Below, piece after piece: positions 19,022-21,323 of a stretch of 64,000 nt of DNA. Position 1 is the stretch's first letter, and each line of letters opens with the position of its first letter. The notes under the pieces were generated by a model that was not told the origin of the DNA, made no database searches, and was given only the letters and a program-made list of their open reading frames with translations. A program made the translations under genes and the position numbers. The DNA comes from Streptomyces sp. NBC_00440 (GTDB lineage Bacteria; Actinomycetota; Actinomycetes; Streptomycetales; Streptomycetaceae), in NCBI RefSeq assembly GCF_036014215.1, contig NZ_CP107921.1, positions 6,021,501 to 6,085,500 of the forward strand. The letters are read 5' to 3'.

Positions 19022-19807
19022 GTGCGCATCGCCAGATTCTCCATCGACGGCAATGTCGCCTTCGGCGTGGTCGAGGGCGAGGGCTCCGATCCCTCGGGCG
19101 ACCTCGTCCTCGACATCATCAAGGGCATCCCGTACTCGGACTTCGAGCTCTCCGGTGTCAAGGTCCCGCTGAGCAAGGTCCGGCTGCTGCCCCCGGTGCT
19201 CCCCAACAAGGTCGTGGCCTTCGGCCGCAACTACGCGGAGCACGCGGCAGAGCTCGGCAACGCGGTCCCGGACGCACCGTTCGCCTTCTTCAAGCCCACC
19301 ACATCGGTGATCGGCTCGGGCGACGCCATCGAGTACCCCTCCTTCTCCAGCGAACTGCACCACGAAGCCGAACTGGCCGTGGTGATCGGCCGGATGTGCC
19401 GCGAAGTCCCGCACGACCGCGTCAAGGACGTCGTCTTCGGCTACACCTGCGCCAACGACGTCACCGCACGTGATGTCCAGAAGCGCGAGAAGCAGTGGGC
19501 CAGGGCCAAGGGCTTCGACACCTCCTGCCCGCTCGGCCCCTGGGTGGAGACCGACCTCGACCCGTCCGACCTGACCATCCAGGCCACGGTCAACGGCAAC
19601 CAGCGCCAGCTCGGCCGCACCAGCGAGATGATCCACTCCATCGCGGATCTGATCGTCAACATCTCCGACGCCATGACGCTGCTCCCCGGAGACGTCATCC
19701 TGACCGGCACCCCGGCCGGCGTCGGACCGCTCAACGTCGGCGACGAGGTCGCCGTCTCCATCGAAGGCATCGGCACTCTCACCAACAAGGTGATCAAGCG
19801 TGGCTAA
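19022..19807 (+). CDS. Fumarylacetoacetate hydrolase-family protein
   Basis: 261 residues, GTG start, C-terminal FAH domain preceded by a short N-terminal beta domain (RIARFSIDGNVAFG). The domain shows KVVAFGRNYAEHAAE (about 62-76), the metal-ligand region YPSFSSELHHEAELAVVIG (about 100-118, with acidic ligands in ELHHEAE) and TGTPAGVGPL near residue 240. Family members act as acylpyruvate hydrolases, HHDD isomerases/decarboxylases or oxaloacetate decarboxylases on small diketo acids; the substrate cannot be assigned. Its stop overlaps the gltX start by 8 bp, so the two are probably cotranscribed. Confidence 0.88.
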   Translation: MRIARFSIDGNVAFGVVEGEGSDPSGDLVLDIIKGIPYSDFELSGVKVPLSKVRLLPPVLPNKVVAFGRNYAEHAAELGNAVPDAPFAFFKPTTSVIGSGDAIEYPSFSSELHHEAELAVVIGRMCREVPHDRVKDVVFGYTCANDVTARDVQKREKQWARAKGFDTSCPLGPWVETDLDPSDLTIQATVNGNQRQLGRTSEMIHSIADLIVNISDAMTLLPGDVILTGTPAGVGPLNVGDEVAVSIEGIGTLTNKVIKRG

Positions 19808-21323
19808 CGCGACACACTCCCCCAAGCTCTCGGCTTCGCTCGACGGGCAGGGGGTGCCCCCCCGCGTACGTTTCTGTCCCTCCCCGACCGGCAACCCCCA
19901 CGTGGGACTGGTCCGCACCGCCCTGTTCAACTGGGCCTTCGCCCGGCACACCGGCGGCACCATGGTCTTCCGCATCGAGGACACCGACGCGGCCCGCGAC
20001 TCCGAGGAGTCGTACAACCAGCTGCTCGACTCGCTGCGCTGGCTCGGCCTGGACTGGGACGAAGGGCCCGACGAAAAGGGCGGCCCGCACGCGCCGTACC
20101 GCCAGTCGCAGCGGATGGACATCTACGCGGACATCGCGAAGCGGCTCCAGGACGCGGGCCACGCGTACGACTGCTACTGCACCACCGCCGAGCTCGACGA
20201 GCGCCGCGACGCCGCCCGCAAGGCCGGCCGGCCATCGGGGTACGACGGCCACTGCCGTGACCTCAGCGCGGAGCAGATCGAGGAGTACCGGGCGGAGGGC
20301 CGCACCTCCATCGTCCGCTTCCGGATGCCCGACGAGACGATCACCTTCAACGACCTGGTCCGCGGCGAGCTCACCTTCACCCCGGAGAACGTCCCGGACT
20401 ACGGCATCGTCCGGGCCAACGGCGCGCCGCTGTACACGCTCGTCAACCCGGTCGACGACGCGCTGATGGAGATCACGCACGTGCTGCGCGGCGAGGACCT
20501 GCTCTCCTCGACCCCCCGCCAGATCGCGCTGTACAAGGCACTGATCGACATCGGCGCCGCCAAGGACATCCCGCTCTTCGGCCACCTCCCCTACGTGATG
20601 GGGGAGGGCAACAAGAAGCTCTCCAAGCGCGACCCGGAGGCGTCCCTCAACCTCTACCGCGAGCGGGGCTTCCTGCCCGAGGGACTGCTCAACTACCTGT
20701 CCCTGCTGGGCTGGTCGTTCTCGGCGGACCAGGACATCTTCTCGGTCGCCGACCTGGTCGAGAAGTTCGACATCGCGGACGTCAACAGCAACCCGGCCCG
20801 CTTCGACCTGAAGAAGGCCGAGGCGGTCAACGCCGACCACATCCGGCTGCTGGACGTGCCGGCCTTCACCGAGGCCTGCACCCCGTGGCTGCGCGCCCCG
20901 CACGCCAACTGGCCGGAGGAGAACTTCGACCAGGCGGCCTGGGAGGCCATCGCCCCGTACGCGCAGACCCGCCTCACGGTCCTCTCGGACATCACGGCCA
21001 ACGTCGACTTCCTCTTCCTGGACCAGCCGGTCGAGGACGAGGCGTCCTGGACGAAGGCGATGAAGGGCGACCCGGTGGCCCTGCTCACCACGGCCCGCGC
21101 CAAGCTCGCGGACGCCGACTGGACCAGCCCCGAGGCGCTCAAGGCGGCCGTCCTGGCGGCCGGCGAGGAGCACGGCCTGAAGCTCGGCAAGGCCCAGGCT
21201 CCGGTCCGCGTCGCGGTCACCGGCCGTACGGTCGGCCTGCCGCTCTTCGAGTCCCTGCAGATCCTGGGCAAGGAGCGCTCGCTCCAGCGGATCGACGCGG
21301 CACTGGCGAAGCTGGCCGCCTAA
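19800..21323 (+). CDS. gltX: Glutamyl-tRNA synthetase
   Basis: 507 residues. It charges tRNA-Glu, and in actinomycetes also tRNA-Gln for later amidation. The HIGH-type motif is in FCPSPTGNPHVGL (about 26-38), followed by FRIEDTDAARDSEESY; the KMSKS-type motif is KKLSKRDPE (about 275-283); the anticodon-binding C-terminal domain follows from about 330. The GTG start overlaps the preceding stop. The N-terminus is odd: between MANATHSP and RVRFCPSP lies a 13-residue segment (KLSASLDGQGVPP) encoded by a palindromic repeat, whereas homologues I know go almost directly into the V-R-F-C-P-S-P motif. The tRNA-Glu and tRNA-Gln genes lie 0.8 kb downstream. Confidence 0.96.
   Translation: MANATHSPKLSASLDGQGVPPRVRFCPSPTGNPHVGLVRTALFNWAFARHTGGTMVFRIEDTDAARDSEESYNQLLDSLRWLGLDWDEGPDEKGGPHAPYRQSQRMDIYADIAKRLQDAGHAYDCYCTTAELDERRDAARKAGRPSGYDGHCRDLSAEQIEEYRAEGRTSIVRFRMPDETITFNDLVRGELTFTPENVPDYGIVRANGAPLYTLVNPVDDALMEITHVLRGEDLLSSTPRQIALYKALIDIGAAKDIPLFGHLPYVMGEGNKKLSKRDPEASLNLYRERGFLPEGLLNYLSLLGWSFSADQDIFSVADLVEKFDIADVNSNPARFDLKKAEAVNADHIRLLDVPAFTEACTPWLRAPHANWPEENFDQAAWEAIAPYAQTRLTVLSDITANVDFLFLDQPVEDEASWTKAMKGDPVALLTTARAKLADADWTSPEALKAAVLAAGEEHGLKLGKAQAPVRVAVTGRTVGLPLFESLQILGKERSLQRIDAALAKLAA
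19817..19863. repeat. Palindromic Streptomyces repeat inserted in frame in gltX
   Basis: The 47 bp from CTCCCCCAAGCTCTCGGC to GGGGGTGCCCCCCC match, from memory, a small dispersed repeat common in Streptomyces intergenic regions, often read as CTCCCCCAAGCTCTCGG and then AGGGGGTGCCCCC. The right end forms a GGGGG-TG-CCCCC hairpin and the left CCCCC can pair with the central GGGGG. Here it lies inside coding sequence, near residues 6-21 of GltX, without breaking the frame. Confidence 0.75.

Follow-up and report, generated by a model that had tools for sequence, protein, structure and literature searches.

A dispersed palindromic repeat of Streptomyces, probably tolerated in frame within glutamyl-tRNA synthetase and other conserved proteins

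The window, i.e. the whole stretch of 64,000 nucleotides analysed here, carries on its forward strand, as do all features listed below for it, a gene of the FAA-hydrolase family (19022..19807; Pfam PF01557, E 5.9e-72, and PF10370, E 5.1e-12) followed by gltX (19800..21323), whose open reading frame encodes a glutamyl-tRNA synthetase of 507 amino acids including an insert (Pfam tRNA-synt_1c and Anticodon_2). The GTG start of gltX at 19800 overlaps the stop of the upstream gene, and the sequence AAGGTG at 19787..19792 is its likely ribosome-binding sequence. After six gltX codons, CTCCCCCAAGCTCTCGGCTTCGCTCGACGGGCAGGGGGTGCCCCC occupies positions 19817-19861; it is free of stops, stays in frame, encodes SPKLSASLDGQGVPP and is directly followed by RVRFCPSPTG. 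The covariance model of a palindromic repeat matches this element with 61.8 bits (E 1.4e-14). Its outer stem is predicted, from RNA folding and from pair counts in 15 copies, to be formed by the 5' arm CCCCC (19819..19823) and the 3' arm GGGGG (19850..19854), and an in-frame GTG within the element (19854..19856) represents a rival downstream start. The sequence, coordinates and frame agree with the original prediction, which had placed a repeat without stop codons six codons into gltX with the frame kept.

Up to E 1 the model found only one second match in the window, of 12.1 bits. A search of positions 19600-20100 against Rfam (E up to 1) gave no match at gathering score on the element; the sole match, at 19660-19722, lay off the element and reached 15.7 of 37 bits, which is below gathering. 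The best-matching PDB synthetase chains begin to align at residue 21-22 of the window GltX, and a weak alignment from residue 9-10 was obtained for 4gri, 9ymm and 4g6z. Since the alignments mostly start at residue 21-22, the inserted segment precedes the conserved GltX fold.

The gltX 5' ends were taken from 148 of 150 Streptomyces genomes, and their length was measured relative to an anchor fixed within the upstream gene. According to this comparison 135 of the 148 alleles lack the repeat and measure 37-61 nt from the anchor, and 12 contain it in frame (82-91 nt). The remaining allele (L116, in genome G082) measures 78 nt, holds an off-frame palindrome-like stretch and has a gltX frame of just 329 amino acids. 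The segment is therefore not common to all homologues, a possibility that would have spoken against an insertion. A second scan yielded 45 Streptomyces records whose gltX contains the repeat, 43 of them in frame. The two sets make up 57 carrier alleles, of which 51 are distinct as six genomes are common to both, and the frame is kept in 55 of the 57. Both exceptions (L193 and L226) miss bases in the C/G runs of the repeat; their frame breaks and that of L116 may well be sequencing errors.

Filled and empty alleles can be compared directly in closely related pairs. The flanks of L235 and L119 are 1.5% apart, those of L232 and L030 1.9% apart and those of L208 and L099 within the same range of 1.5-1.9%, and in each pair the filled allele is longer by 39 nt net. 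The allele of the window is longer by 42 nt than its nearest empty relative (L022) and by 45 nt than the commonest empty form, and L018 likewise gains 42 nt. The gltX insert of Streptomyces sp. NBC_01306 (L213) is the same as that of the window. The predicted addition of about 13 residues hence applies to most carriers, which gain 39 nt, and falls short of the window allele itself. Among 120 database GltX proteins listed, a loose motif picked out 33 with the segment and the upstream start, all within the first 39; it missed two further ones recognised by eye (P0029, P0034) and the query held the insert, so that these figures are no measure of frequency. On these comparisons of aligned alleles, the gltX repeat is an insertion.

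The exact 18-mer of the window repeat occurs once in its own 8.7-Mb genome, and three further places match it with one or two mismatches (reversed control 0). The first nine bases, TCCCCCAAG, are not enriched there (34 occurrences vs 46 in the reversed control), and among 14 genomes they clearly exceed the control solely in G101 (99 vs 63) and G026 (55 vs 25). As simple strings are uninformative in most of the 14 genomes, they were dismissed as a census and a covariance model (R1) was used instead, which was built from 12 gltX copies and three other copies of the own genome with L116 excluded. At E<=0.1, and with up to 150 candidates scored per genome, the model recovered 9 copies in the own genome, 6 in G034, 112 in G101 and 49 in G026. 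The claim of a common Streptomyces repeat consequently holds for the family, with nine members here and an abundance of copies in some relatives, and fails for the exact string; uniqueness in the genome, which would have counted against a repeat, likewise applies to the string and not to the family.

At E<=1e-4 the model matched in 126 of 150 Streptomyces genomes, where up to 43 candidates were scored per genome and high counts are therefore lower bounds. In a sample of the phylum it matched in 4 of 149 genomes, all of them Streptomyces and thus one genus of 118, and in none of the 117 other genera. The copy number varied between Streptomyces species from none found to more than 100, the copy-rich genomes including G040, G073, G101, G124, G128 and G144. 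Carriage of the repeat in gltX was rejected as a mark of a copy-rich genome: copy numbers in the 12 carriers span 1-43, with fewer than 15 in 10 of them, and the remaining genomes have a median of 4.5.

Of 89 fetched loci, 51 copies could be parsed together with their flanks and 38 could not. The parsed copies indicate a unit of about 44 nt with a CCCCCAT end, and from them we read the consensus CTCCCCCAAGCTCTCGGCTYCGCTCGAGCAGGGGGGACCCCCAT, which would form a CCCCC/GGGGG hairpin. No clear target-site motif was detected in the 51 copies beyond the element's own ends. The consensus is free of stops in all six frames; a special adaptation is not indicated by this openness, as 37% of the 44-mers drawn at random from the window are open as well.

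The 89 copies, which do not include L190, were furthermore classed by a simple codon-based gene finder of our own: 35 are internal to a predicted gene, 53 are intergenic and one is overlapping, although the finder trims the gltX start and so counts two gltX copies as intergenic. The listing of copies inside coding regions that the original prediction had called for gave 23 of 48 examined in G101, 7 of 28 in G026 and 3 of 7 in the own genome. When the DNA on either side was scored in six frames over up to 40 codons, both flanks scored best in the same frame for 22, 6 and 3 of these internal copies, respectively. Since the same finder classes 87-89% of the flanking DNA as coding, the repeat is depleted in genes yet common there. 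When 20 of the 35 internal open reading frames were scanned, 18 matched a Pfam family at E<=0.001, 17 of them above the curated cut-off, including phenylalanyl-tRNA synthetase beta, glycine cleavage T protein, pyruvate dehydrogenase E1 and a response regulator. Each of the six frames of the element is represented among the peptides, with L179 giving a sense one.

In pheT the repeat is present in G101 and G144 and absent from the DNA of six close relatives (matches of 897 vs 858 nt), and in G101, which gives a single pheT match, it sits where the Pfam B3/4 match breaks; pheT varies in length among distant genomes, and G090 at 76% identity also gives 897 nt. Among the best matches listed for gcvT, those of G101, G090 and G093 measure 399 nt and the others 354-363 nt; the element is visible in the DNA of G101 and G090, and the model matches there in G093. 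Database GcvT proteins have 13 or more extra amino acids at the same place.

A third case is a gene of the own genome (L009/L296, G000:C1:2105838-2106950, outside the window) which we take to encode an MBL-fold-like hydrolase. One loop of this protein contains three tandem 12-codon units, in-frame copies of a related repeat reading PLSAPFEQGDP and then twice PLSASFERGDP, and in G101, G026 and G073 copies are likewise present in this loop. Antisense copies are found at the same spot of this junction in G101 and G026 (71 vs 32 nt). Among the best 30 loci for the loop, L302 clearly contains a copy, though in a different frame (+51 nt), L297-L301 have other inserts and 23 (L303-L325) have none. 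The inserts of L298, L299 and L300 are 13 codons long and resemble, by eye, decayed antisense in-frame copies; such decay is a possible route from a repeat to ordinary protein sequence. Together with gltX, the genes for PheT, GcvT and the MBL hydrolase provide in-frame copies in unrelated conserved genes.

The net gain is 39 nt in most single-copy filled alleles of gltX, pheT, gcvT and the MBL hydrolase gene, the exceptions being L018 (+42), the window allele (+42/+45), L302 (+51) and the MBL gene of the own genome with its three copies. No target-site duplication was observed in the gltX, pheT, gcvT and MBL pairs; about 2-6 target nucleotides are replaced, depending on how the ends are aligned. 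At the one intergenic site examined, upstream of sucB, a query of 551 bases is matched in the nearest relative by a stretch with 39 nt fewer overall, and the junction itself differs by about +40/41 with other indels around it. The usual gain of 39 nt may be set by the insertion mechanism or by selection for the frame. The copy at this site (L364, G000:C1:1922495-1922536) lies just before the presumed sucB start, and diverged copies with the palindrome kept were seen by eye at the same spot in L367-L370 and L373.

As to an enzyme that could move the repeat, a candidate is the Y1/HUH transposase family PF01797, in view of the REP-associated tyrosine transposases of GTAG-type REPs. It was detected in 47 of 150 genomes and, among the 17 genomes in which the copies number at least 30, in 14 (p 6e-6 by Fisher's test, uncorrected for kinship or genome size), and the median copy number is 16 with and 4 without it. 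No R1 match was found at the eight best Y1-transposase loci, and PF01797 is absent from the copy-rich genomes G026 (49 copies), G090 and G144. The repeat is probably mobile.

Starting from what the sequences themselves establish for insertion, frame, family, residency in coding regions and spread, we consider it very probable that the window segment represents one copy of a dispersed Streptomyces palindromic repeat which is tolerated in proteins and behaves like the Rickettsia palindromic elements (RPE). A copy, moved by a putative enzyme, would insert between or inside genes; in replacing a few target bases it would add 39 nt net, so that the frame would be kept and about 13 residues gained. 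With a consensus free of stops in six frames, a copy could be read in either orientation. In gltX it would lengthen the N-terminus in front of the first stretch of strong conservation, and this extension is probably near-neutral because the length of gltX already varies at this position.

How the gltX copies came about may be considered separately. They may go back to a few old insertions followed by many losses or by recombination between species, rather than to many fresh insertions; this history is compatible with the explanation given above, and we judge it to be a serious candidate, if somewhat short of an even chance. The gltX copy of G101 has two features that are rare in the pool of its own genome: of the 34 parsed pool copies (out of 48), 3 show TA and 2 the GGAC stem. 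The TA dinucleotide occurs in 29 of the 57 gltX copies, a set that includes nine unparsed ones, vs 3 of those 34. As the gltX copies are unlike the G101 pool in these features, many of them may be inherited or exchanged. In the same direction, five alleles with a TAG flank have a GTCC/GGAC stem in common, and in 350,432 bases around gltX of 45 carriers the model matched once per locus, namely the gltX copy, and nowhere else.

On the other hand, the insertion lies in an upstream register in L194, L197, L223, L227, L229 and L230, and two registers imply at least two insertions. Upon loss, the conserved valine codon would also need to be restored exactly. A quick maximum-likelihood tree, computed from 187 rows (51 of them carriers) of linked flanks from which the insert was excluded, rejects a single carrier clade (AU p 1.8e-7). 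The fewest state changes on this tree are 41 (shuffled mean 44.4, least 39), and at least 23 remain if only branches with SH-aLRT >=95 are kept; the flanks are short, carriers and non-carriers were sampled differently, and such counts are blind to gain as opposed to loss. Distances between elements are only weakly related to those between flanks (Spearman 0.117, p 0.077). Taking these observations together, we read the history of the gltX copies as a mix of repeated insertion, loss and exchange.

A more far-reaching version assumes a frame-safe insertion system, in which a dedicated, site-preferring mechanism with a fixed gain of 39 nt would repeatedly write the same 13-codon cassettes into housekeeping proteins throughout the genus, at spots that it prefers and in whichever of the six frames. 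We regard this as an unlikely, though conceivable, extension.

The repeat might instead be kept for a function: as a hairpin between the two operon genes it could tune the coupling of their translation or the stability of the mRNA, or it could supply an N-terminal tail with a role of its own. Its presence at the same gltX site in many lineages would fit such a role, as would the pairing of the stem: in the alignment of 15 copies pairing extends to 97.0% of the stem cells, changes on both sides are seen in 10 cells, and none of 500 shuffles attained either of these values or the covariation score. However, the number of pairs with changes on both sides (3) and that of further pair types (4) stayed within the shuffles, so that three of five measures exceed all shuffles and two do not, and insertion of different family variants can also produce covariation. 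Folded alone, the window copy gave no evidence of a hairpin (z -0.43 as DNA, -0.29 as RNA), and single copies in general (z -0.3 to -1.8) did not fold clearly better than shuffled sequences. The family can accordingly be described as a dispersed repeat whose palindrome can fold into a hairpin, for which the folds of single copies are weak evidence when taken alone. Considering furthermore that 135 of the sampled alleles do without the repeat, at varying lengths, maintenance for a function appears improbable, and a tolerated insertion remains the preferred reading.

It could also be argued that the KLSASLDGQGVPP segment is untranslated, with GltX starting at GTG 19854 and the repeat acting as an intergenic hairpin between two genes of an operon. 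This start would give VPPRVRFCPSP, the element begins 7-16 nt past the upstream stop in the carriers, and REPs in NH2-terminal coding regions have been suggested to be extragenic as a result of misannotation (a passage of PMC3733652). The window allele, however, is one of only six carriers with an internal in-frame start; in the other 51 of 57 the interval from the upstream GTG to RFCPSP is free of in-frame ATG, GTG and TTG, from which it follows that GTG 19854 is not the general start. The upstream GTG is present in all 193 gltX alleles (148 plus 45, with six genomes in both sets) and preceded by AAGGT in 191 of them, and the frame is kept in nearly all carriers as stated above. In our reading the G run abutting GTG 19854 is too near for a usual ribosome-binding site, and a downstream gltX start would leave the mid-gene copies in pheT, gcvT and the MBL gene unexplained. 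The downstream start named in the original prediction is thus possible in the window and absent from most carriers, and we hold it to be very improbable as an account of the segment; because 51 of the 57 carriers offer no other start before the catalytic motif, the inserted segment should be translated. An artefact of assembly or contamination, for which one might cite the three off-frame alleles as a sign of base errors in some assemblies, is practically out of the question given 57 carrier alleles, 51 of them distinct, with flanks matching those of their relatives.

The predicted parallel to Rickettsia, with RPE set beside the Streptomyces repeat by description, holds for its behaviour in gltX as well as in pheT, gcvT and the MBL hydrolase gene. 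In passages of PMC2229807 and PMC3733652, RPE are palindromic repeats located between genes and in frame within conserved protein genes, and the Streptomyces repeat likewise combines intergenic copies with in-frame copies in such genes. RPE are described there as specific to Rickettsia and 105-146 bp long, whereas the Streptomyces repeat comprises about 44 nt, is G+C-rich and, in the samples covered here, occurs in Streptomyces alone. The same article of 2013 (PMC3733652, in part) describes GTAG and CGTC REPs as hairpins of 20-40 bp, mostly intergenic and some of them intragenic, including in tRNA synthetase genes. The Streptomyces repeat resembles these as a hairpin repeat found between and inside genes, tRNA synthetase genes included; unlike them it ends with CTCCCCC and CCCCCAT in the 51 parsed copies and bears neither tag. 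The main text of PMC3733652 has no occurrence of "Streptomyces".

The Cod-2 repeat (PMC2267715, 2008, in part) belongs to Corynebacterium diphtheriae and is set apart, by description, by its different genus; "Streptomyces" does not occur in the main text of that paper, and no genus other than Streptomyces in the phylum sample had an R1 match. MITEs such as Correia/NEMIS, ERIC and RUP are likewise small repeats and non-autonomous; in several of them open frames are fused to genes in frame, and most have terminal inverted repeats and target-site duplications (passages of PMC2229807). Unlike most of these, the filled and empty pairs of the Streptomyces repeat show a few replaced target bases and no duplication. 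Within the same passages Wolbachia appears just in a cited title. Passages of PMC4681348 and PMC1590033 contain no mention of the Streptomyces family, no description of it was found among the listings and abstract beginnings of the open-licence literature, and six 16-mers of the repeat core have no occurrence in the open-licence literature.

In the literature passages covered here, in-frame palindromes have been described for Rickettsia, for several REP-bearing genera and for one Corynebacterium; here they are found in a free-living and much-sequenced genus. Filled and empty alleles of one gene exist side by side, which makes insertion, loss and the effect on the protein directly testable. That the repeat recurs at identical sites, usually with 39 nt gained net, prompts the question of how it is moved and by what. 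For annotation it follows that such segments in Streptomyces proteins can derive from a DNA repeat.
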